Part shown: positions 3,089 through 44,299 of the stretch, piece after piece
Layout: every line of letters starts with the position of its first letter
Numbering within the stretch: position 1 is the stretch's first letter
Assembly (NCBI GenBank): GCA_021648725.1
Contig: JAKISF010000008.1
Span: forward strand, 1 to 64,000
Direction: 5' to 3'
DNA from: Bacteroidales bacterium
GTDB taxonomy: Bacteria > Bacteroidota > Bacteroidia > Bacteroidales > JAADGE01
Length of the DNA stretch: 64,000 nucleotides
The notes under the pieces: generated by a model
Told to the model about the DNA's origin: nothing
The model's input: only the letters and a program-made list of their open reading frames with translations
The model's database searches: none
Program-made: the position numbers and the translations under genes

Positions 3089-4138
3089 ATGCAAAAAACA
3101 ATAATAAACACAAACAAACTGTTTAAAACCGAAACAGCATTAAAGGTTCTGCCGAAAACAATTACGGTTTGGCATGATTTAAAAAAGCAGGTTGCAAAAA
3201 TCGACATAATCATCAACGGTTTTCGAAAACCCGAACTTACAAATGCAACGGCACTTAACTATCTTTTGCTTGAAGATAAAATACCGATAAATGTAATAAT
3301 CGTAGAATCATCAGGCGATGAAAACATTTTTAATCAACTAATCAAACACAATAAAGTAAGTAAAATTTTAGTTGAAGACCACAAAGCAAGCCACCCTGAA
3401 CACGGAGCAGGTTCATACGGTATGTCAATTTCATCAGCCGTAGGATTCTATTTTTCAAAATCACCCTACGTTTTTTTCAGCCATAACGATATGATTGCCT
3501 TAAAAAAAGATTTTCTCGAACATCTTTTATCTAAACTTAACGAAAAAACACGAATTGCATCTTTTACCCAAAGACATGTAATTCCTTTTACCGGTTGCAT
3601 GCTTATTGATCGAAATTTAGTAACTGATTCCGAAACCGACTGGTTACTTTATGACAATAATCCGTATATTGAAAGGTCAAAGTTTTTGCAAGATTTATGT
3701 TCCCTCAAAGAAAACAAACCAATGTTGAAATGCGACTGGATTGATTCGGGAGAAGCATTAATTTATGAAGAAATTGCAAAAGGGAACAATGTTTTCGTTG
3801 CTGCTTCATTCGGCGGTACAAAAGGATTATGGAAAACAACTTTTGATTTACTCGGTATAACTAAACGTGATGTTGAAAAAATAGGGAATGCAATTATTTA
3901 CGAAAACTTAACAACTAATAAAAAAGAATTCAAAAAACGATATAAGTTTGTGCTGAGGGCAGGAAAAAAATGGGAAAACATACGATGGTTTTTGAGCAAG
4001 CGTAAAAATTACTGGCGATACTCAATAAATGAGAATAATGATTTAATTTTTATTCACCACGGCAGAGGAACTCGCAGAACAATTAATCGTTGGATGAAAT
4101 TTGTGCATGCTCTGAATAAAAGCCTTTCGGAAGATTAG
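3089..4138 (+). CDS. Glycosyltransferase-like protein (GT-A fold, family 2-like)
   Basis: A 349-residue soluble protein. After about 38 residues it shows an alternating strand/helix pattern (IDIIINGFRKPEL, then INVIIVESSG) like the nucleotide-sugar-binding half of GT-A glycosyltransferases. FFSHNDM at about 129-135 occupies the place of the DxD metal site and GCMLIDR follows at the expected acceptor-loop distance. The usual DxD is not literally present, so activity is uncertain. It is last in the plus-strand operon. Its stop TAG (4136-4138) overlaps the stop of the convergent flippase gene. It probably decorates the same glycan; family placement is moderate. Confidence 0.55.
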   Translation: MQKTIINTNKLFKTETALKVLPKTITVWHDLKKQVAKIDIIINGFRKPELTNATALNYLLLEDKIPINVIIVESSGDENIFNQLIKHNKVSKILVEDHKASHPEHGAGSYGMSISSAVGFYFSKSPYVFFSHNDMIALKKDFLEHLLSKLNEKTRIASFTQRHVIPFTGCMLIDRNLVTDSETDWLLYDNNPYIERSKFLQDLCSLKENKPMLKCDWIDSGEALIYEEIAKGNNVFVAASFGGTKGLWKTTFDLLGITKRDVEKIGNAIIYENLTTNKKEFKKRYKFVLRAGKKWENIRWFLSKRKNYWRYSINENNDLIFIHHGRGTRRTINRWMKFVHALNKSLSED

Positions 4139-5394
4139 CCTTTTTCTAAACGGTCTTTTTTCTCCGGTAAAATTAAAATAATAAAATTCAAAATATTGAA
4201 ACAGAAGAACTTCGCAAAAATAAAGTATTCAATTTTTTTTGTAAATAAATAAACTGTTACCGAAAATAGTAAAGTAATAACAGGAATAGTAATTTTAAGA
4301 TGAATAAGAATCTTTTCGTTTTTTCTTGCCAAAACTTTTTTTGACAAAACCGAACTTACTATAAAAAGCGGAACTATCAATACAAATAATTTGAAATAAT
4401 AGGCAGATTTTAAATATTTATCGGTATAAAGTATCCTTATCAAATCATCTGCAATAAAAAATAAAATTCCGGTAAGTATTATTCCAAAAAAAAGTAAAAT
4501 TAGTATTTGTTTAACGGACAATGAAATATTATGCTTTGCAAACTTAGGGAAAGTAATAGCTGCTGCACTTTTAATGAAATTTTTTATGATGTTAATTAAA
4601 CCCAAAGAAATTGCATACACAGCAAGCATTTTTATATCTAAAATACCTATTAAAATTTTATCAAAATGGTTTACTACCGTATTTAAGATACCTAATTTCG
4701 TAATAAATCCGGCATATTGCAATGTGTCTTTACCTTTTTGGTTGTTTTTTATTTCCTTTTTTGTTCTTAAATATAGCACAATGTGAAAAAATGCAGTGCC
4801 GAAAAGATATGCAGCTACAACAGGTAACAAATAATTTCGAAATAAAACAATTGCCGAAACAATCAAAACAGTTTTTCCGATTGTTATTAAAATATTATGC
4901 TTCGTAAATTTCTCAAATTGTTCTTTTCCTTTCAGAAATACCTGCCATTTATCAAAAGAAAACAAAAAAGGGAAAACAACAGCCGATAACAGTAATGCAA
5001 ACGCAACAAGTTCTTCCGATTTAAAAAAATAGTAAACGGCAACACCTACAAGAAATAAACTTCCGAAAGGCGAAAATCTAAGTGCCCGGCTAACACCGAG
5101 TTTCAAATCGCCTTCATTACCTTTGGCTATACTTCTTATCAAAGCCGGATTTAATCCCGGAACTGAAAAAAACGAAAAAAAAGCAATAATCGACAACACT
5201 AACTGATATTGACCGTATATTTCTTTCTCAAAAAAGCGAGCAAACAGCATTGATGTTGCAAGTCCTGCAACCATAACAACCGCTTGGCTGAGAAGCATCC
5301 AAAAACCGTTTTCAACAAAATAAGGTAAATCAAATCCCAGGCGATCGCCTGTTTTTTTACTGATATTATATATTTTACGCCTTATTTTTTTCAA
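4135..5394 (-). CDS. Polysaccharide flippase (Wzx/MVF superfamily membrane protein)
   Basis: A 419-residue protein with about 12 predicted membrane helices. The N-terminal pattern (ENGFWMLLSQAVVMVAGL followed by ARFFEKEIYGQYQL) is typical of O-antigen and capsule flippases, which have an FG.Y motif after helix 1. It would move lipid-linked oligosaccharide units across the inner membrane. It is transcribed against the sulfotransferase/methyltransferase operon and the two genes overlap by four bases at their stops. A short minus-strand leader (5395-5456) separates it from the divergent YfhO-type gene, so both may be controlled from the same 95-bp region. Confidence 0.85.
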   Translation of the reverse strand: MKKIRRKIYNISKKTGDRLGFDLPYFVENGFWMLLSQAVVMVAGLATSMLFARFFEKEIYGQYQLVLSIIAFFSFFSVPGLNPALIRSIAKGNEGDLKLGVSRALRFSPFGSLFLVGVAVYYFFKSEELVAFALLLSAVVFPFLFSFDKWQVFLKGKEQFEKFTKHNILITIGKTVLIVSAIVLFRNYLLPVVAAYLFGTAFFHIVLYLRTKKEIKNNQKGKDTLQYAGFITKLGILNTVVNHFDKILIGILDIKMLAVYAISLGLINIIKNFIKSAAAITFPKFAKHNISLSVKQILILLFFGIILTGILFFIADDLIRILYTDKYLKSAYYFKLFVLIVPLFIVSSVLSKKVLARKNEKILIHLKITIPVITLLFSVTVYLFTKKIEYFIFAKFFCFNILNFIILILPEKKDRLEKG

Positions 5395-5456
5395 CAGAAA
5401 TAATTATTAAGCTAAAGCGTAAAAATAACATTTTTTTATTTTCAAAATAATTATAA

Positions 5457-5464
5457 TAATTTTG
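5457..5464 (+). promoter_or_regulatory. Promoter -7 box TAATTTTG
   Basis: Matches the Bacteroidota housekeeping -7 consensus TAnnTTTG. It lies 25 bases before the ATG at 5489 and covers the TTG at 5462, which argues that this upstream TTG is not the translation start. No convincing -33 TTG is visible. Confidence 0.55.
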
Positions 5465-5488
5465 AAACATTACTTTACTTCAAACAAT

Positions 5489-8215
5489 ATGAAAAGAAGC
5501 AAAAAATCAAAAGATAACATCAAAACAAAAAATGTTGTTAAAAAAAATACGAAACAAACAAAAACAGAATACACACAAACATTCTTTTTTGAAAAATATT
5601 TTAATGTTTGGACACTTTCATTATTAATTTTTGTTATCGGTTTTTTTGCTTTCTCAAAATATTTAACAGGCGAGTATCTTTTCTTTTTTAAAGACATAGG
5701 CAGTGACAGCATAAACCAAAATTATCCGGGCTTGGTTCATAAAATTAACCTTTTAAAAGAAGGGTTTTTCTCAGAATGGTCATTTTCCAAAGGCATGGGT
5801 GATGAATACATTACGGGTATTGCTTCCGAACCGTACGGACTTTTGCGTCAAACAATTGACTATTTAGGAGCAAGTTTCGGCGGTGCTAACTTTTTTATAT
5901 TCGGAAGATTTTTGCGAATTTTTATTTTTTCTTTTTTGTTCAGCGGAATTATCAGCTATTTGTATTTCAGAACTTTATCTTTTGAAAAACATATCTCGTT
6001 TATCGGTGCATTGTTGATTTCTTTCTCCGGCTATATGGTTGTAGGTGCCGGGTGGGGATTTTCTTCGCACATTTTTAAAGCAATGTTTTTGCTTTTTGCA
6101 TTTGAACAACTTTATTTAAAAAAACGATGGTATTTTTTCCCTTTTGCAGTAATCTTGCTGTCTTCAAACCCTTTTGTTTTATTTATTTATTCCGTATTTT
6201 TAGTTTTATACTCACTTTTCAGATATTTTTCCGAAGAAAAAAACAAATTGCCCGACTACTTCAAACTATCCGGAAAAATGATACTGCTCGGATTTGTCGG
6301 TTTAATGATGAACTTCTCTCATCTTTTACGTTCTTTTTTGAAAATGTATAACAGTCCGCGAGTTGCCGGAGATGTGTCATACAGCAACATTTTAAGTGCA
6401 GGGCAAGATATTACCGAACACGGAAACCTTGCAGGAACAACTATTTTTCGCTTTTTTTCAAGCGATATTCTCGGAACGGGAAGTAATTTTCACGGCTGGT
6501 CCAATTATCTTGAAGCACCGCTTTTTTATATAGGATTACTTACTTTGTTGATATTTCCGCAAGTTTTTATTCGCCTTAATAAAAGAAAAAAAATCATTTT
6601 CGGAACTTTCCTCGGATTTTGGGTGCTTACTTTATTTTTCCCTTATTTGAGATATTCTATGCTTGCTTTTACGGGTGACTATTTTCGCTACGGTTTTGAC
6701 TTTTTCATTCCTTTTACCTTATTGCTCTTTGCAATATTTGCTGCTGACGAAATAATAAAAACAGCTAAAATTAATTTACCTTTGCTTGCTGCAAGTTTAA
6801 CAGTTCTTATTATTCTTCTTTTTGTACCCTATGAGAGCATTTCTTCTGTTAACATTAATTCAACTATCCGGAATTCAGTTATAATTCTTTTGGTTTTATA
6901 TGCCCTTTTCATTTTTCTTTTATCAAAACCAAAATATAAATCGTTATCAAAATCGGCAATTATGTTGCTTGTTATTTTTGAACTTTCGTATTTTTCTTAC
7001 CAATCATACGCCACAAGAGAACCGATTACAAAAACAGAATTTAAAAAAGACAAAGCCGGTTATGCCGACGGCTCAATAAAAGCTGTAAAACTTATCAAAT
7101 CAACAGATAAAACACCTTTTTTCAGAACCGAAAAAGATTATCAATCAGGAAATGCAGTACACAGCAGTTTAAATGATGCCTTAGCACAAGACTATTTCGG
7201 AACAACATCTTATTCTTCATTTAATCAACTTAATTATGTTCGGTTTCTTGAAAAAACCGGCGTTATACAAAAAGGAGATGAAACGGCTACAAGATGGTTA
7301 ACCGGATTACGTGGCTCTCCTCTGTTGCAAACTTTCGGAAATGTGAAATATCATTTGAGCAAATCAAAAAATCCTGAATTTCTTCTATTCGGTTTTGATT
7401 CATTATCAACTGAGAGCGGTATAACAATTTTAAAAAACAGATATTATTTACCTTTCGGTTATACTTATGATAAATACATTGATTCGGAAGATTTTAAAAA
7501 TCTGATTAATTACCAAGTTACCGGGCAATCTTTAACAAATATATATACAGATTTATCCCGAACTGTTGAGCAACAAAAATTAACAGAAATTATTTCTAAA
7601 CTACAGACTGTCATAAACATCAGATATTCAAACAACAACACTTTCAATGATGTATTGATAAAACAACTCGGAACAGAAGATGCAGAGAAATATTCAATAA
7701 CAATTTCAAAATACAGTGTTTCAAATTTCAGAAATCAAATTGCACTTTTATCAGGTTTTGTTTATGAAAAAGAATTTAATAAAAATGTAAATATCAGCAG
7801 TTTTGAAAAAATACAATTTAATGATTCAAACATACTTGTTCCTGCTTCAAGTTTCAATTTTGATATTTACAAAAAAATAACCGACGAATTAAAACAAGAC
7901 ACTTTTCAAATAGAAAATTTTTCTAATTCAAATATTAAAGGCAAAATAATTTTACCAAAAACAAAAATGTTATTTTTCACGATACCCTACGATGAAGGCT
8001 GGAAAATAAAAGTAAACGGCAAAGAGGAACTCCTGCAAAGAATTAATTTCGGGTTTGCCGGAATTGTTCTTCCGAAGGGTTCTTATAATATTGAATTATA
8101 TTACGTTCCTAAGCATTCAAGGTTTGCAAATATGGTTTCGTTAATCTCAATTCTCAGTTTTTGGAGTTTCTTATTTTATTTTATAATTAAAAAAAGGAGG
8201 AAACAAAAAGCCTAA
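5489..8215 (+). CDS. YfhO family membrane protein
   Basis: A 908-residue polytopic membrane protein. A short basic N-terminus (KRSKKSK) leads into a first helix near residue 45. A luminal-type loop follows with KDIGSDSINQNYP, the conserved acidic start of YfhO/GT-C-like proteins. About a dozen helices follow, then a large soluble domain (about residues 520-870) and a last helix before a Lys/Arg tail. YfhO in Gram-positives is linked to glycosylation of lipoteichoic acid, and the fold resembles GT-C mannosyltransferases. I chose ATG 5489 over an in-frame TTG at 5462 because the latter lies in the promoter box. The context with flippase and sulfotransferases supports a role in surface glycan or glycolipid modification. 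Confidence 0.85.
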   Translation: MKRSKKSKDNIKTKNVVKKNTKQTKTEYTQTFFFEKYFNVWTLSLLIFVIGFFAFSKYLTGEYLFFFKDIGSDSINQNYPGLVHKINLLKEGFFSEWSFSKGMGDEYITGIASEPYGLLRQTIDYLGASFGGANFFIFGRFLRIFIFSFLFSGIISYLYFRTLSFEKHISFIGALLISFSGYMVVGAGWGFSSHIFKAMFLLFAFEQLYLKKRWYFFPFAVILLSSNPFVLFIYSVFLVLYSLFRYFSEEKNKLPDYFKLSGKMILLGFVGLMMNFSHLLRSFLKMYNSPRVAGDVSYSNILSAGQDITEHGNLAGTTIFRFFSSDILGTGSNFHGWSNYLEAPLFYIGLLTLLIFPQVFIRLNKRKKIIFGTFLGFWVLTLFFPYLRYSMLAFTGDYFRYGFDFFIPFTLLLFAIFAADEIIKTAKINLPLLAASLTVLIILLFVPYESISSVNINSTIRNSVIILLVLYALFIFLLSKPKYKSLSKSAIMLLVIFELSYFSYQSYATREPITKTEFKKDKAGYADGSIKAVKLIKSTDKTPFFRTEKDYQSGNAVHSSLNDALAQDYFGTTSYSSFNQLNYVRFLEKTGVIQKGDETATRWLTGLRGSPLLQTFGNVKYHLSKSKNPEFLLFGFDSLSTESGITILKNRYYLPFGYTYDKYIDSEDFKNLINYQVTGQSLTNIYTDLSRTVEQQKLTEIISKLQTVINIRYSNNNTFNDVLIKQLGTEDAEKYSITISKYSVSNFRNQIALLSGFVYEKEFNKNVNISSFEKIQFNDSNILVPASSFNFDIYKKITDELKQDTFQIENFSNSNIKGKIILPKTKMLFFTIPYDEGWKIKVNGKEELLQRINFGFAGIVLPKGSYNIELYYVPKHSRFANMVSLISILSFWSFLFYFIIKKRRKQKA

Positions 8216-36836: not shown

Positions 36837-39140
36837 ATGAAAACAACAAGACGTGATTTTATAAAGATATCTTCAATGGGAGTAGGCGGTCTTGCTCTTT
36901 CGGCATCTCCTGTTTTAGGATGGGTTCCAGGATTTTTAAAAATTGATGATGTTATTCCTGACGATTCCAAAGTAAAAAGAACACCGACCTATTGCGAAAT
37001 TTGTTTTTGGAAGTGTGCCGGATGGACATATACTGACGAAAAAGGCAAAATATTAAAAATTGTCGGAAATGACGATGACCAACATTCAAACGGAAGGTTT
37101 TGCCCCAGAGGAACCGGCGGTGTAGGAATGTATAATGACGAAGACAGATTAAAAACTCCTTTAATAAGAGAAGAAAAAGACGGGAAACAATATTTCAGAG
37201 AAGCAAGTTGGGATGAAGCATTAGATTTAATAAGTAAACGTCTGACAGAAATAGGAGAAGAATATACCAGAGAATGTATTGCATTATTTACACACGGCTC
37301 AGGCGGTAAATTCTTAGGAAATGTTTTGAAAGCATTCGGTTCCGGAAGTATATCCGCTCCTTCGTATGCACAATGCAAAGGACCGAGAGAAGTTGCTTTT
37401 ATTGCAACTTACGGAAAAGGTTTAAGCTCGCCCGAACCTACTGATATAAGAAATACAAGATGTTTAGTTTTAATAGGCTCTCATATCGGAGAAAATATGC
37501 ATAACGGACAAGTTCAAGAAATGTCCGAAGCCATTGATAACGGTGCAACAATTATTACCGTTGACCCCAGATACTCTACTGCTGCAAGTAAATCTAAATA
37601 CTGGTTGCCGATTAAACCCGCTACGGACATTGCTCTTTTATTAGCTTGGATGAACGTTATTATTAAAGAAGAACTATATGATAAAGAATATATTGAGAAA
37701 TACACATTCGGATTTGAGCAATTAAAAAATCATGTTAAAAATAAAACTCCTGAATGGGCATACGGCATCACAACCATAAAGCCTGATGTCATTAGAAAAA
37801 CTGCAAGAGAAATGGCAGGAGCTGCTCCTGCAGCAATCGTTCATCCCGGAAGACACACAACTTGGTACGGAGATGATACTCAAAGGTTAAGAGCTGTTGC
37901 AGTTCTAAATGCTCTTCTCGGATCTTGGGGCAGAAAAGGAGGATTCTATATGTCTGAAAAATTGCATTTAAAAAACATGAATACTCCCGAATATCCCAAA
38001 ATGAAACATACTTGGCGTGATGCACATCCGGGAAAATATATGTTGGCAGATTTAGCATTAGCATCCGGAATTTGTGATGCAACAATTCCGAGTGTTGACA
38101 GAGAGTGTTCATATAAAGCATGGATTGTAAACGGTTCAAACTTATTAACAACAATACCCAACAGAAAAAATACAATTGAAGCAATTAATAATTTGGAATT
38201 TATGGTGGTAATTGATACAATGCCTGCTGAAATTACCGGATATGCTGATGTTGTTTTACCGGAATGTACATACCTTGAGCGTTATGATATGTTAAGAACA
38301 TCTAAACACAGAAAACCTTCCGTTGCTTTAAGAATGCCTGCAGTTGAACCTAAATATAACTCTAAACCTGACTGGTGGATTGCAAAGCAATTAGCAGAAA
38401 AACTCGGACTCGGAGATTACGTTCCCTATAATGATATTACAGAACTTTTGGATTGGCAATTAAAACAAATAGGAAGTTCTTTAGAGGAAATGCAAAAAAT
38501 CGGTGTTAAAAATATAGACAGAGAGTATAACGATTTGTATATTCTTCAAGGAGAAGAGCATGAATTTAACACAAACACAGGGAAGATTGAACTGTATGCA
38601 ACATCATTTCAGCAAGAAGGTTTTGACCCTTTGCCGAATTATACTGCTCATCCTGAGCCTTTACCCGGGTTTTACAGGCTTAATTACGGAAGAGCTCCGA
38701 TGCACACATTCGGAAGAACAACAAATAATCCGAACCTGACGGATTTAATGGACGAAAATAAACTTTGGGTAAATCCTAAAGTTGCAAAAGAATGGGATTT
38801 AAGTAACAACCAAGAGGTTTGGTTAGAAAATCAAGACGGAGTTGTTTCAACTTTCCCCATTAAAGTCAGAATAACGGAAAGAATCGGGAAACATTCGGTT
38901 TATCTCGTTCACGGTTTCGGAAGATTTGACAAACGATTAAAAAGAAGTTACGGTAAAGGACTTGATGATTCAGAATTGATTACAAATGTTATGGTTGATC
39001 CTATTATGGGAGGAACCGGAATGAGAGGGAACTTTGTCACATTTATAACGGAAGACCCTAAATTAAAACTTGTCGGAAATAAAGCAAGAAAAAGAAATAA
39101 ATCCGGCAACAGTGCAAAAATTAATAATAAACAAGCCTAA
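36837..39140 (+). CDS. Molybdopterin oxidoreductase catalytic subunit (PsrA/PhsA-type, Tat-exported)
   Basis: A 767-residue DMSO-reductase-family enzyme with Tat signal TTRRDFIK (RR at 5-6). A [4Fe-4S] site comprises Cys53, Cys56, Cys60 and Cys89 (YCEICFWKC, FCPRG). Cys180 in APSYAQCKGPRE sits at the Mo-ligand position. The Cys ligand and the Psr/NrfD-type partners downstream point to polysulfide, sulfur, thiosulfate or tetrathionate reduction in the periplasm. Arsenate or other sulfur-oxyanion substrates cannot be excluded. First gene of an eight-gene operon; the iron-sulfur subunit starts two bases after its stop. Confidence 0.88.
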   Translation: MKTTRRDFIKISSMGVGGLALSASPVLGWVPGFLKIDDVIPDDSKVKRTPTYCEICFWKCAGWTYTDEKGKILKIVGNDDDQHSNGRFCPRGTGGVGMYNDEDRLKTPLIREEKDGKQYFREASWDEALDLISKRLTEIGEEYTRECIALFTHGSGGKFLGNVLKAFGSGSISAPSYAQCKGPREVAFIATYGKGLSSPEPTDIRNTRCLVLIGSHIGENMHNGQVQEMSEAIDNGATIITVDPRYSTAASKSKYWLPIKPATDIALLLAWMNVIIKEELYDKEYIEKYTFGFEQLKNHVKNKTPEWAYGITTIKPDVIRKTAREMAGAAPAAIVHPGRHTTWYGDDTQRLRAVAVLNALLGSWGRKGGFYMSEKLHLKNMNTPEYPKMKHTWRDAHPGKYMLADLALASGICDATIPSVDRECSYKAWIVNGSNLLTTIPNRKNTIEAINNLEFMVVIDTMPAEITGYADVVLPECTYLERYDMLRTSKHRKPSVALRMPAVEPKYNSKPDWWIAKQLAEKLGLGDYVPYNDITELLDWQLKQIGSSLEEMQKIGVKNIDREYNDLYILQGEEHEFNTNTGKIELYATSFQQEGFDPLPNYTAHPEPLPGFYRLNYGRAPMHTFGRTTNNPNLTDLMDENKLWVNPKVAKEWDLSNNQEVWLENQDGVVSTFPIKVRITERIGKHSVYLVHGFGRFDKRLKRSYGKGLDDSELITNVMVDPIMGGTGMRGNFVTFITEDPKLKLVGNKARKRNKSGNSAKINNKQA

Positions 39141-39142
39141 TT

Positions 39143-39676
39143 ATGAGATATGCAATGGCAATAGACACAAAAAAGTGTGTCGGATGCAGCGACTGTGTCG
39201 TAGCCTGTCAAACAGAAAACAATATCCCGATAGGATATTCTCGAGATTGGATAACAGAAACAGTTGAAGGAATTTATCCCGGTTTGCATTTGGAAATAAG
39301 ATCGGAAAGGTGTAATCATTGTGAAAATACTCCTTGTGTAAGAACTTGTCCCACAGGAGCAAGTCATATAATCGAAGGCGGTATTGTAAAAGTGAACCAT
39401 GAGGAATGTATAGGGTGCGGAGCATGTATTCAATCATGTCCTTATGATGCAAGATATTCGCATCCCGAAGGTTATGTTGATAAATGTACATTTTGCGACC
39501 ACAGGATTAACAACGGTCAAGACCCGGCATGTGTTTCGGTTTGCCCTACGCATTGTATGTATTTCGGTGATTTAGATGACCCGAACAGCGAAATTTCCAA
39601 AATAGTATCTGCTCGAAAAGTTAAAGTTTTAGCTCCGGAAGCAGGAACAAAACCACAAATATTCTATTTAGTATAA
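39143..39676 (+). CDS. Four-cluster [4Fe-4S] electron-transfer subunit (PsrB/NrfC-like)
   Basis: A 177-residue ferredoxin-type protein with 16 cysteines in four sets: 12/15/18/22, 57/60/65/69, 89/92/95/99 and 115/118/130/134. It has no signal peptide. Such subunits are carried out with the Tat-exported catalytic partner. It would pass electrons between the quinone-reactive membrane subunit (next gene) and the molybdenum site. The size and cluster order match PsrB, NrfC and DmsB. An additional Cys138 (THCMYFG) lies just beyond the last set. Confidence 0.93.
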   Translation: MRYAMAIDTKKCVGCSDCVVACQTENNIPIGYSRDWITETVEGIYPGLHLEIRSERCNHCENTPCVRTCPTGASHIIEGGIVKVNHEECIGCGACIQSCPYDARYSHPEGYVDKCTFCDHRINNGQDPACVSVCPTHCMYFGDLDDPNSEISKIVSARKVKVLAPEAGTKPQIFYLV

Positions 39677-39701: not shown

Positions 39702-40718
39702 ATGAGAGAAGAAATTATAACCAGCGGAAGAATGAACCCGGGAATTGATCCGTACCTTCATATATGGCACTGGGAAATCCCCTTATATTTATTTCTCGGC
39801 GGACTTGCTGCCGGATTACTTTTTTTTGCCGCTTATTTTGTCATAACAGGAAAAGATAAACAGTTTCCAACCGCAGTAAAATATGGGCCGATTATAGCTC
39901 TTGTTACAATTGTTATCGGACTTATTGTTTTAATACTAGACTTAAAACACCCTGCATATTTTTGGCAACTGTTAACAACAGTCAGGTTTGTTTCTCCGAT
40001 GTCATGGGGAGCATGGACATTAGTGTTTATGTCTATTGTAAACGTTGTTTGGCTTTTTTCATATGCAAAAGATATTTTTAAAGGTTATAAATGTCGCTTT
40101 AAGTTTGTGCTTAAGTTAACAAAAATACTTGTAAAAGAAGACAGCAGCAATGAATACGGTTGGGAATGGCAACACAAATTAATAAAACGGTTTGAAATTT
40201 ATACACAAGACAAACGAAAAGCATGGGCTTGGGTAATGATTGTTCTTGCTGTTATTTTAGGTGTATATACCGGAATCTTATTGTCTGCATTTAACGCACG
40301 CCCATTATGGAACACCTCTATTTTGGGACCTCTGTTTTTAACCTCAGGTTTGTCCACGGGAGCAGCATTACTTATGATTTTATCTAAAACACATTCGGAA
40401 AAACATGCTTTCAGCAGAATTGACATTTTACTTATTGTAATTGAATTGTTTTTTATAGTTCATATGTTTATGGGGTTCTTAGCAGGTTCCGAAGTAAAAG
40501 CTGAAGCTGCCCATTATTTCCTTGGCGGAGAATTTACGGTTGTTTTTTGGATAAATGTTGTTATAATAGGACTTATTATTCCTGCTGTTCTTGAAATTTT
40601 AGAACTTCTTAAATTTAAAATACCTGTTATTGTTCCCGGAATATTAATTCTGTGGGGAGGTATGATGTTTAGGTTTATTATGGTGGATGCCGGACAAATA
40701 ACAAGATTCTTATATTAA
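39702..40718 (+). CDS. NrfD/PsrC-type membrane subunit
   Basis: A 338-residue membrane protein with about nine helices. HIWHWEIPLYLFLGGLAAGLLF at the start, PAYFWQLLTTVRFVSPMSWGAW and NARPLWNTSILGPLFLTSGLSTGAA are conserved NrfD-family segments. PsrC-type proteins exchange electrons with menaquinol at the inner membrane and anchor the catalytic and iron-sulfur subunits. There is a soluble insertion between helices 3 and 4 (about 128-165). Third gene of the operon, 25 bases after the iron-sulfur subunit. Confidence 0.92.
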   Translation: MREEIITSGRMNPGIDPYLHIWHWEIPLYLFLGGLAAGLLFFAAYFVITGKDKQFPTAVKYGPIIALVTIVIGLIVLILDLKHPAYFWQLLTTVRFVSPMSWGAWTLVFMSIVNVVWLFSYAKDIFKGYKCRFKFVLKLTKILVKEDSSNEYGWEWQHKLIKRFEIYTQDKRKAWAWVMIVLAVILGVYTGILLSAFNARPLWNTSILGPLFLTSGLSTGAALLMILSKTHSEKHAFSRIDILLIVIELFFIVHMFMGFLAGSEVKAEAAHYFLGGEFTVVFWINVVIIGLIIPAVLEILELLKFKIPVIVPGILILWGGMMFRFIMVDAGQITRFLY

Positions 40719-40750: not shown

Positions 40751-41269
40751 ATGGAAGGCAAAAGAAAATATATGAATTCATATCTGGCAGGAGTATTGTT
40801 AGGCTTGCTTATCTTAGCATCGTTCTATTTTACTCGAGAAGGGTTGGGTGCCAGCGGAGCTTTTAAAAGAACTGCCGCAAAAATTGAACAAACAATAATT
40901 CCTTCATACATAGAAAACCCCGATACCTATTTTCATAAATATGTTAAAAACGGAACAGATCCTTTAAAAAACAGATTAGTATTTATGATTATCGGTGTTT
41001 TTGTAGGCGGATTTATTTCGGGTGCAATTAACGGAAGACTTAAAGTTAAATTACAACATTCTCCTAATATTACAGCTAAAAAAAGAGTAATTGCCGCCGG
41101 AATAGGAGGAATACTTTTCGGAATAGGAGCATCTTTCGGAAGAGGGTGTACAAGCGGTGCGGGCTTAGACGGAATGGCAGTTCTGGCAACAACAGGCTTT
41201 ATAGTCGTTGCTGCAATTTTCGGGACAGGATATTTGGCAGCATGGTTTTTCAGAAAAATGTGGCTGTAA
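40751..41269 (+). CDS. YeeE/YedE family half-transporter (first of pair)
   Basis: A 172-residue membrane protein with about four helices. GIGASFGRGCTSGAGLDGMA (Cys133) is the YeeE/YedE (sulf_transp, formerly DUF395) signature. In YeeE of E. coli, conserved cysteines relay thiosulfate across the membrane. Here the transporter is split into two small proteins encoded next to each other, each with one conserved Cys motif. Between helices 1 and 2 lies a long hydrophilic loop (about 30-72). It probably moves a sulfur compound for the molybdoenzyme or for sulfur recovery. Confidence 0.88.
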   Translation: MEGKRKYMNSYLAGVLLGLLILASFYFTREGLGASGAFKRTAAKIEQTIIPSYIENPDTYFHKYVKNGTDPLKNRLVFMIIGVFVGGFISGAINGRLKVKLQHSPNITAKKRVIAAGIGGILFGIGASFGRGCTSGAGLDGMAVLATTGFIVVAAIFGTGYLAAWFFRKMWL

Positions 41270-41308: not shown

Positions 41309-41896
41309 ATGGGACCTTTATTTACAGCAGCTGACGAGTGGAGTTATGTTATAGCTCTTGTGCTCGGAATTGCTTTCGGGTATATTTTAGAAAGTGCAGG
41401 TTTTTCTTCCTCAAGAAAACTGGCAGGTGTATTTTACGGATATGATTTTGTTGTATTGCGTGTATTTTTCACGGCAGCAATTACGGCAGCAATCGGGCTT
41501 TTCTATTTTGATTATCTCGGGTGGCTTAATTTCTCAGAAATATATGTGAATAAGCTTTACGTGGGTTCTGCAATTGTAGGCGGAATGATAATGGGTTTAG
41601 GATTTATAATCGGAGGTTTTTGCCCGGGTACAAGTGCTTGTGCAGCAGCAATCGGGAAAGTTGATGCAATGATTTTTATCGGAGGTGTTGTTATCGGTGC
41701 AATAATTTTTGATGCCGGATATCCCTTATGGGGCGAATTTTATGAAAGCGGAGGCAAAGGATCTGCCACTCTTTATGAAGACTTAGGTATTTCAAGAGAA
41801 TTATTATTGTTCGGCTTTATATTGTTTGCATTATTCGCTTTTTGGGCAACTGCATTAATTCAGAAAAAAGTATCAAATAAAACGCATAAATATTAA
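41309..41896 (+). CDS. YeeE/YedE family half-transporter (second of pair)
   Basis: A 195-residue membrane protein with about six helices and the motif IIGGFCPGTSACAAAIG (Cys105, Cys111). This is the complementary YeeE/YedE half to the gene just upstream. The N-terminal GYILESAGFSSSRKLAG is also characteristic. The two halves probably assemble into one pore with their cysteines lined up. It ends five bases before the first rhodanese gene. Confidence 0.88.
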   Translation: MGPLFTAADEWSYVIALVLGIAFGYILESAGFSSSRKLAGVFYGYDFVVLRVFFTAAITAAIGLFYFDYLGWLNFSEIYVNKLYVGSAIVGGMIMGLGFIIGGFCPGTSACAAAIGKVDAMIFIGGVVIGAIIFDAGYPLWGEFYESGGKGSATLYEDLGISRELLLFGFILFALFAFWATALIQKKVSNKTHKY

Positions 41897-41901
41897 TTGA
41901 A

Positions 41902-42549
41902 ATGGCTGATAATAGACAATTTAAAAAAAGATACATTTTAATGGCTTTAATCTTAGTGATATTAGCAGGCGGAACTTTACTTCTTCCCGAAAAATATGTA
42001 TCTGAGGAATTAAGTCCGGAAAACTTGCTGAAAGAGATTAATGATAATACCAGATATATATATCCAGATGATATTGCTCATCTTATTATAAGCAAAGACC
42101 CTAATTTTTTATTGATTGACGTAAGAGATTCTGCTTCATATCAAGAATTTAAACTGCCGGGAGCAATTAATATTCCGTTAAAAAACTTGCTCGACAAAGA
42201 TGACGCAGGAGATTATAAATGGGAAGGTTTTTTAAATCAAGATACTCGAAAAAATATATTTTATTCAAACGGAACGGTTTATTCGCATCAAGCATGGATG
42301 TTAACAAAGCGACTTAATTATGAAAACAACTACGTTATGAAAGGCGGATTAAACAAGTGGATTGAGACGATTATACAAGTTCGCCGACCTGAATTTGATG
42401 CATCAGAACAAGAACTTGCAACATATACATTCAGAAAAGCCGCAAGTATGTTTTTCGGAGGAGGAGGAACTGCCGCTAGTGATGATCCCGTTAATATTCC
42501 GGCATTTACAGGTAAGAAAAAAGAAAAAGAGGTTCAAGAAGGTTGTTAA
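41902..42549 (+). CDS. Membrane-anchored rhodanese-like protein, catalytic Cys absent, ends in Gly-Cys
   Basis: A 215-residue protein with an uncleaved N-terminal helix (about 11-28) and one rhodanese domain (about 52-160: LIDVRDSASY, then LPGAINIPL). The active-site loop reads FYSNGTVYSHQAW (120-132), with Ser122 where the catalytic Cys should be. The only cysteine of the whole protein is its last residue, Cys215, after a Lys-rich tail (TGKKKEKEVQEGC). The next gene's product shares this tail. It may hold sulfur on the C-terminal Cys, like a swinging arm. Periplasmic by topology. The carrier role is inference. Confidence 0.8.
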   Translation: MADNRQFKKRYILMALILVILAGGTLLLPEKYVSEELSPENLLKEINDNTRYIYPDDIAHLIISKDPNFLLIDVRDSASYQEFKLPGAINIPLKNLLDKDDAGDYKWEGFLNQDTRKNIFYSNGTVYSHQAWMLTKRLNYENNYVMKGGLNKWIETIIQVRRPEFDASEQELATYTFRKAASMFFGGGGTAASDDPVNIPAFTGKKKEKEVQEGC

Positions 42550-42567
42550 ATTTTAAATCAGAATAAA

Positions 42568-43212
42568 ATGAATAGTCAATATCTAAATATAGGTCACAAA
42601 AAAATATCTAATAAGCTGCCGATTATCGGTATTTCTGCAATTGTAATAGTTGTTCTCGGAATTCTGTTAATGAGCCATCCGAAAATTAAATATCAAATCA
42701 GCACGGAAGATATGTTAGAGATTGCAATAGAAAAGAAAGATATAATAAGACCTGCCGAATTCATGAATATCTATTACACAAAAGATTCGAGTTATCGTTT
42801 TATTGATTTAAGGTCTGCACATGAATTTTTAATAAGCCACATAGACGGTGCAATTAATATTCCGATTCATAAATTATTAGATGATGAATATGAGAATATT
42901 TTTAATCAAGACGAAAAGATTAACATACTGTATTATTCAGACCAATGCGGAGCATGCGGACCCTGGATGATATTAAAACAAATAGGATATCCTAACAATA
43001 AAGTTTTGCAAGGAGGGTATAATTATGTGAAAAAAAGCATTATTGATAATTATGCTCCGATGAGCGGTGATTATAGTGCAGAAAAAGCAAAATATGATTA
43101 TGCCGAAGTTATAAAAAATACTCCGAGCAGCGGTGCAGAATCTACCCTTGAAACCGGACCCGTTATCGTCGGGAAAAAGAAAAAAAAGAGAGAAATAGAC
43201 GGCGGTTGCTGA
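42568..43212 (+). CDS. Membrane-anchored rhodanese-like protein with CGAC loop and Gly-Cys terminus
   Basis: A 214-residue paralogue of the preceding gene: anchor helix (about 18-36), rhodanese domain (about 58-158: FIDLRSAHEF, IDGAINIPI). The loop is YYSDQCGACGPW. Ser124 takes the usual Cys position, but a CxxC pair (Cys127, Cys130) follows within the loop, as in thioredoxin-like or disulfide sites. The tail VGKKKKKREIDGGC ends in Cys214. The stop TGA is followed at once by TAA. Could shuttle persulfide between the CxxC pair and the terminal Cys. Not tested. Confidence 0.8.
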   Translation: MNSQYLNIGHKKISNKLPIIGISAIVIVVLGILLMSHPKIKYQISTEDMLEIAIEKKDIIRPAEFMNIYYTKDSSYRFIDLRSAHEFLISHIDGAINIPIHKLLDDEYENIFNQDEKINILYYSDQCGACGPWMILKQIGYPNNKVLQGGYNYVKKSIIDNYAPMSGDYSAEKAKYDYAEVIKNTPSSGAESTLETGPVIVGKKKKKREIDGGC

Positions 43213-43261: not shown

Positions 43262-44299
43262 ATGAAAAATATATCATTCCCGATTTTTATATTAACATCT
43301 TTTTTTATAACCGTTTTATTATCTTGTAGCTCAGGAGGAAGCAGTAAAAAAGAATTAGCAAAAAATACGGTATTAAATGCTGAAAACGAAACAGAAGCAC
43401 TTTTTGATTTTTTTGAGAAATCAGGCAGTTATATTAATTCACCACAAATACCGGCACTTGTTTTTGCCGATGATGTTTTCGAAAACATTAGGGAATATAA
43501 ATTAATCGACATTCGAAACACAATTGAATACTTATCCGGACATATTGAAAGTGCTGAAAACATTAAGCCGAAAGATATTATTAATTATATGAAGTTTGGT
43601 ATTTCTGCCGTAAGTTTTGAGAAAATTGTAATTATCAGTAATTCCGGATTTGATGCTTCGTATGTAACTTCAGTGTTGAGGCTTTTAGGTTATAATAATG
43701 TCTTTGCGTTAAAATACGGAATGAGTTCATGGAATAAAGAATTTGCAAATGAATATTGGAATAATAATCTCTCAAGTAAATATGTTTCAACTTTAGAAAC
43801 AGCCAAAAATGAAATTCCTGAAAAAAATAACTATCCGACCATAACAACGGGAAAAACAACAGCCTATGAAATACTTGAAGTAAGAGCTCGTCAATTGTTA
43901 GACTCTTTAAATTTCAGAATAACGGCAGATTCTTTGTATAGCAATATTTCAAAATATTTTATTGTAAATTACTGGCCTAATTTCCAGTATGAAAAAGGGC
44001 ATATTCCCGGGTCATTTCAATATACGCCGAGAAAATCGTTAACTAAAGATTCCCTTTTGCTGACTTTGCCCGTTAACAAACCCATTGTGTTATATGAATA
44101 TACCGGACATCACTCTTCATTTGCCGCCGCATATTTGCAAATATTAGGATATGACTCTTATGTTTTGGATTACGGAACAAACGCAATTATGTATTCTCAA
44201 TTAGCAAGCAAAAAAATAGGGCGTATTTTTAATATGAAGTCGGTAAATAACTATTCTGTTGTTACAGGGCAGAAAAAAAGGAGAAGGTCAGGATTTTAA
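43262..44299 (+). CDS. Lipoprotein with two degenerate rhodanese domains
   Basis: A 345-residue protein with lipobox Cys22 (VLLSCSSGG), which is its only cysteine. The first rhodanese domain is about 65-165 (LIDIRNTIEYLSGHI, loop ISNSGFDASY). The second is about 210-320 (KGHIPGSFQYTP, loop YEYTGHHSSFAAAY). Both loops lack Cys: Ser in the first, Glu in the second. The C-terminus VVTGQKKRRRSGF resembles the tails of the two preceding proteins without the terminal Cys. Last gene of the sulfur operon. It probably binds a sulfur compound or a partner in the periplasm without catalysing transfer. Confidence 0.8.
   Translation: MKNISFPIFILTSFFITVLLSCSSGGSSKKELAKNTVLNAENETEALFDFFEKSGSYINSPQIPALVFADDVFENIREYKLIDIRNTIEYLSGHIESAENIKPKDIINYMKFGISAVSFEKIVIISNSGFDASYVTSVLRLLGYNNVFALKYGMSSWNKEFANEYWNNNLSSKYVSTLETAKNEIPEKNNYPTITTGKTTAYEILEVRARQLLDSLNFRITADSLYSNISKYFIVNYWPNFQYEKGHIPGSFQYTPRKSLTKDSLLLTLPVNKPIVLYEYTGHHSSFAAAYLQILGYDSYVLDYGTNAIMYSQLASKKIGRIFNMKSVNNYSVVTGQKKRRRSGF

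Follow-up and report, generated by a model that had tools for sequence, protein, structure and literature searches.

Among described sulfur carriers, SoxY of SoxYZ is a periplasmic swinging arm that carries sulfur intermediates between enzymes on the cysteine of a C-terminal GGC motif (PMC5336275, PMC11237559), and it has been proposed that the SoxY cysteine hands its sulfur to cysteines lining a YeeE-family channel, with the hand-over of sulfane sulfur between periplasmic redox enzymes and channels of this family regarded as an open question (PMC11582611). A YeeE family channel is also combined with a thiol carrier in the YeeE/TsuA-YeeD and SoxT transporters, and in the cytoplasm DsrC/TusE (PF04358), a protein of another fold, takes part in sulfur relay through a cysteine near the end of a flexible C-terminal arm. 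The periplasmic rhodaneses of Psr operons are thought to work via a loop cysteine. Examples of periplasmic proteins of rhodanese fold that are encoded together with Psr/Phs are Sud of Wolinella and the triple-rhodanese lipoprotein of Desulfurivibrio dismutans (PMC12142623).

Here we analyze a stretch of 64,000 nucleotides from a Bacteroidales genome (the window), in which an operon ends with three genes for rhodanese-fold proteins, R1, R2, and R3. A lysine-rich arm with a GGC end on a rhodanese scaffold that mostly lacks the usual catalytic cysteine has apparently gone undescribed so far, and we found no paper on such a tail among the open-licence PMC papers. The arm family would offer a simple and mutable answer to the question of hand-over, i.e., one terminal cysteine, in many cases the protein's sole cysteine, and it occurs in the genomes of cultured organisms (Maribacter, Sunxiuqinia).

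Organization of the operon and anatomy of R1, R2, and R3

Our analysis demonstrated that the PhsABC/PsrABC gene set, i.e., molybdoenzyme, 4Fe-4S subunit, and NrfD subunit, is complete in the window operon, with all genes of the operon encoded on the forward strand. The PhsA/PsrA-like molybdopterin oxidoreductase (36837..39140; PF00384, 1.3e-46) has a twin-arginine-type N-terminus, and its best NCBIfam model is PhsA at 452 bits, below the cut-off of 694, so that this model leaves the thiosulfate/polysulfide subfamily unassigned. A PhsB-like 4Fe-4S subunit (39143..39676; PF13247) and an NrfD/PsrC-like membrane subunit (39702..40718; PF03916, 8.1e-51) follow. The Sulf_transp domain of YeeE/YedE (PF04143) is present as two halves encoded by separate genes, YeeE1 (40751..41269), which matches the second half of the domain, and YeeE2 (41309..41896), which matches the first half and is fused to R1 in other genomes, with a single invariant cysteine in each (GRGCTSG in 113 relatives of YeeE1 and GGFCPGT in 112 relatives of YeeE2). 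The final three genes encode R1 (41902..42549, 215 aa; PF00581, 1.8e-13), R2 (42568..43212, 214 aa; PF00581, 1.5e-11), and R3 (43262..44299), a lipoprotein with a lipobox and two rhodanese domains, and all three score above the Pfam cut-off for PF00581.

For R1, AlphaFold predicts (mean pLDDT 88.7) the transmembrane helix (residues 5-27), the rhodanese domain, a helix at residues 169-186, and a low-confidence tail at residues 187-215, and the top Foldseek matches of this model in the PDB are rhodaneses. Alignment to solved rhodaneses places Ser122 (42265..42267), nearly invariant in R1 relatives, at the position of the catalytic cysteine, and it is in this serine at the loop position, with a terminal thiol instead, that R1 differs from Sud and the D. 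dismutans protein. Because the active-site cysteine is replaced, the R1 rhodanese domain is predicted to be catalytically dead, with the fold serving as a scaffold. The basic N-terminus ahead of the helix suggests, through the transmembrane topology, that the R1 domain lies in the periplasm, and both R1 and R2 are predicted to be anchored in the inner membrane via the N-terminal helix. Residues 12-171 of R1 also match the N-terminal part of TsoB (NF045694, a rhodanese/DsbD fusion-like selenoprotein) at 39 bits, but this is far below the cut-off of 805, and R1 has neither the DsbD part nor a selenocysteine.

R1 ends in FTGKKKEKEVQEGC (given also as GKKKEKEVQEGC), and its translation confirmed what a sequence-only reading of this DNA had noticed, i.e., that residue 215 is both the last residue and the sole cysteine of the protein. 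The arm (residues 187-215, 42460..42546; pLDDT about 56-62) is unstructured and lysine-rich with a Glu-Gly-Cys end, of which the terminal Gly-Cys (42541..42546) is invariant in 109/109 tailed R1. R2 likewise consists of a transmembrane helix, a rhodanese domain, and a lysine-rich arm (43120..43209), which ends in IVGKKKKKREIDGGC (given also as GKKKKKREIDGGC) and in which G212, G213, and C214 are invariant in alignment A2. The rhodanese domain of R2 has a CGAC loop (Cys127-x-x-Cys130, 42946..42957) that is conserved in part of the R2 proteins only, the loop cysteine being missing in many, and since the R2 of the window has these two extra cysteines its tail cysteine need not be the sole active thiol. 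The pattern GKKK-x-K-x-x-x-x-G-C that had been read in both tails is correct as to the lysine-rich stretch and the terminal Gly-Cys, but the spacing in R2 is one residue longer. Two further explanations concerning R2 were rejected: TAA, TAG, and TGA alternate among relatives, so the TGA that ends R2 is an ordinary stop and not a selenocysteine codon, and a frameshift does not lie behind two tail-less R2 proteins (L204, L213), as their other frames contain no tail.

R3 ends in VTGQKKRRRSGF, a tail stump (GQKKRRRSGF, 44267..44296) that has no cysteine, as the earlier description of a like tail without Cys in the third protein had it. The R3 proteins of relatives have two intact Cys loops and a tail, which in the AlphaFold model of one of them (residues 344-376) has a pLDDT <50. 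Since both loop cysteines and the tail cysteine have been lost in the window R3, this protein is probably degenerate, through either decay or a changed role.

Conservation of the terminal Gly-Cys

Relatives were collected from three sources, i.e., whole genomes of the same order, 396 genomes spread over the phylum (57 with a match), and 80 loci found through the PhsB protein, a query that is independent of the tail. The sample covers Bacteroidota plus a few contigs with records naming other phyla (L175, L216), and the counts of termini given next were made on distinct sequences, with duplicates removed. Among the Bacteroidota relatives, a C-terminal xGC or xGCx is present in 99 of 99 R1, 10 of 11 YeeE2-R1 fusions, 73 of 76 R2, and 24 of 36 R3, compared to 0 of 486 PhsA, PhsB, NrfD, and YeeE proteins and 1 of 430 other ORFs, and this conserved terminus is no chance occurrence. 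A random loss of the tail or its cysteine among homologues was also looked for, and none was seen among the 99 R1. A few members have lost the terminal cysteine: the window R3, three R2, and one fusion (L101).

In the R1 relatives, the invariant Gly-Cys is preceded at position -3 by G, E, or rarely D, and the linker upstream is variable. The arms of the carriers extend for a median of 40 residues past the last conserved helix Arg. No cysteine other than the terminal one is present in 63 of the 99 R1 and in 29 of the 76 R2. In the window genome (3.24 Mb), R2 is the only open frame >40 aa with a GGC end, and among real ORFs a KKK...GC end is confined to R1 and R2; a proteome-wide tail was rejected, as in this genome it is restricted to two operon genes. 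A looser C-terminal pattern, applied to five other genomes, was too unspecific for use.

At one locus (L199, 1352-1870), an extra R1-like protein of 172 aa with the end DADIGGC is encoded well upstream of PhsA, and the GGC terminus may be used beyond the standard operon. At Flavobacteria-type loci (L185, 12281-14311; L218, 12318-14428; L265, 4662-6666), R1 and R2 are followed by two tandem, tail-less double-rhodanese proteins that end soon past the fold.

The YeeE channel and its exchangeable redox enzymes

At the annotated loci, R1 is located directly 3′ of YeeE2 or is fused to it, and these YeeE2-R1 fusions are mostly from other classes of Bacteroidota. At 9 of the 10 fusion loci examined, the fusion is adjoined by an octaheme tetrathionate reductase, without PhsABC and in most cases with a b-type cytochrome, and the fused R1 next to this enzyme keeps the GGC end. 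At the one locus scanned, the octaheme enzyme scored 590 bits with TIGR04315, above the cut-off of 375. Near the tenth fusion (L101) neither redox enzyme is encoded, and the R1 part of this fusion has lost the tail. A search of the window genome, run without a positive control, did not find the octaheme tetrathionate reductase. Since R1 is always with YeeE and the redox enzyme is exchanged between loci, gene order points to YeeE as the constant partner and to the redox enzyme, either PhsABC-like or octaheme tetrathionate reductase, as the variable one; from this we infer a contact between the arm and the channel.

At the loci L252-L259 and L103, the octaheme tetrathionate reductase, which has 8 heme motifs, forms an operon type with cytochrome b561, YeeE1, and the YeeE2-R1 fusion. 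This arrangement looks like a tetrathionate or sulfur system that is linked to quinones and has a channel to itself. The PhsABC-YeeE-R1 operon is adjoined by genes for proteins with 12 heme c motifs at three loci (L265, 13954-15858; L264, 872-2833; L260, 337-3126).

We consider it fairly probable that R1, R2, and the R3 of most relatives are periplasm-facing sulfur-carrier proteins with arms that serve the YeeE channel, and the nearly unbroken conservation of the Gly-Gly-Cys end across the phylum points to a swinging arm from which this membrane sulfur channel would receive sulfur. The sequence-only reading had instead proposed that persulfide passes from the YeeE pair to the molybdoenzyme, a destination that is not general, since the molybdoenzyme is replaced elsewhere and the split YeeE stays constant. 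A related alternative, in which the arms would feed the redox enzyme, i.e., supply the molybdenum site of PhsA with sulfur from polysulfide or thiosulfate, as is thought for Sud and the Wolinella Psr, with YeeE as a separate import branch, seems doubtful: PhsABC does share the operon here and in nearly all of the loci found through PhsB, and the sequence matches include 1qxn, the structure of Sud, but the fused YeeE2-R1, which has the same GGC end, sits with the octaheme tetrathionate reductase and not with PhsABC, and the neighbour that stays the same is YeeE. As an alternative acceptor may exist in the octaheme enzyme, serving YeeE and serving the redox enzyme may both be true.

Matched arms and a candidate sulfur-transfer system

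Comparison of the 13 residues ahead of the terminal tripeptide demonstrated that the R1 and R2 tails of the same genome share 0.63 identity, with cores that are only 24% identical, whereas orthologous R1 tails of different genomes share 0.26 identity, with cores that are 42% identical. R3 tails behave alike (0.56 and 0.68 within a genome vs 0.31 across genomes). This match is not explained by chance or composition, as near-neighbour swaps (0.295, with a maximum of 0.347 in 2000 draws), composition-preserving shuffles (0.19), and slid registers (<=0.32) all give identities far below those observed. Codon identity at the matched residues is 0.54 vs 0.50 expected and pS is 0.70, i.e., synonymous sites are near saturation overall, so that in most genomes the tails match at the protein level, and recent gene conversion was also rejected as the only explanation. 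The tails of L174, L080, L094, and L185 do look recently gene-converted, and the matches at these four loci could partly be neutral. At L174 (6864-9313), the tails of R1, R2, and R3 are identical over 18 residues and the R1 and R2 DNA is almost identical, which we read as a probable recent conversion or copying of the 3′ end between otherwise dissimilar genes.

Since the tails match within a genome and differ across genomes, on cores that are divergent, all arms of one cell probably share one docking partner. That the arm is flexible and its terminal thiol functional, as proposed at the outset, is now a prediction well supported by the invariant terminus, the disordered linker, the lost catalytic cysteine, and the matched tails. 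The family is an example of an enzyme fold that has lost its catalytic cysteine and holds a C-terminal thiol invariant, and its arms match in sequence across three different proteins.

On the reading of sulfur-carrying arms, the rhodanese fold would serve as the scaffold for a disordered, lysine-rich C-terminal arm bearing Gly-Gly-Cys, the terminal thiol of which would load sulfane sulfur (as persulfide or S-thiosulfonate) produced or used by the periplasmic redox enzyme. By swinging, the arm would then carry this sulfur towards the mouth of the split channel formed by YeeE1 and YeeE2, each with one invariant cysteine, or away from it, and in relatives the loading may be carried out by an active R3, with its two Cys-loop rhodanese domains. 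The broader reading, to which we give an even chance, is that of a new periplasmic sulfur-transfer system, in which a split YeeE and two or three pseudo-rhodanese carriers, with interchangeable polybasic GGC arms co-selected for one docking site, would be coupled to either of two redox enzymes that are unrelated, the PhsABC-like one or the octaheme tetrathionate reductase, the catalytic thiol of the rhodanese fold having moved to a mobile tail.

The terminal cysteine could instead form disulfides, bind metal, or be lipidated, and the tail could conceivably be clipped off during maturation. Disulfides between the tail cysteines of R1, R2, and R3, or a metal bound by them, would hold one complex together, and the match of the three tails within a genome is what would be expected of parts touching a common surface; this is nevertheless unlikely, as R1 is the sole tailed protein at some loci (e.g., L202, L206, L215, and L260-L264), so that partner tails are unnecessary, and a lone terminal cysteine is a poor metal site. 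Still less likely is a membrane-targeting or lipid-attachment signal like the tails of Rab and Ras: the polybasic stretch (mean net charge of +3.5 over the last 25 residues) with a terminal GGC does resemble eukaryotic prenylation tails, but R1 and R2 already have a transmembrane helix and R3 a lipobox, the tail persists on R1 fused to the membrane protein YeeE2, and we know of no periplasmic prenyltransferase. A processing site, at which cleavage would leave a Gly-Gly end open to thiocarboxylation, as in those sulfur-carrier proteins that have residues past GG, is scarcely credible: GG-C with 0-1 further residues does resemble precursors trimmed to GG, but 16 of 109 R1, that of the window included, have Glu at position -3, so that the cysteine is invariant and the GG is not, and the activation requires ATP, which the periplasm is not known to contain.

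Returning to the sulfur-carrying arms, their closer analogue, judged by architecture, would be SoxY. R1 and R2 share with it a flexible, disordered C-terminal arm with a conserved GGC/EGC end (followed by a few residues in SoxY), a periplasmic side as suggested by the transmembrane topology, and a role in sulfur carriage, SoxY's own and that proposed here. They differ from SoxY in having a rhodanese fold and no match to PF13501 (which also matched nothing in the window genome, in a search without a positive control), a cysteine that is last or second-last, a lysine-rich arm, a membrane anchor, no SoxZ, and, within each operon, two or three carriers that are matched to each other. Compared to YeeE/TsuA-YeeD and SoxT, the channel is split, the carrier is extracytoplasmic and rhodanese-based, and the operon has no TusA/YeeD gene. 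The likeness to DsrC/TusE that had been drawn is the weaker of the two analogies, holding for the cysteine on a C-terminal arm, but R1 and R2 match only the rhodanese family in Pfam (PF00581, with no match to PF04358), and the true DsrC/TusE of the window genome, which ends in PSSCV, is encoded at a separate locus. This locus (L251, G000:C5:1-16000, 3894-6712, minus strand) encodes in a row a type III sulfide:quinone reductase (NF049943, 644 bits), DUF1641, DsrC/TusE, and a DsrE2-like protein, which we class as a putative cytoplasmic sulfur-handling set, and DsrC/TusE and the DsrE2-like protein could receive sulfur that has passed the channel, or supply it, on the cytoplasmic side.
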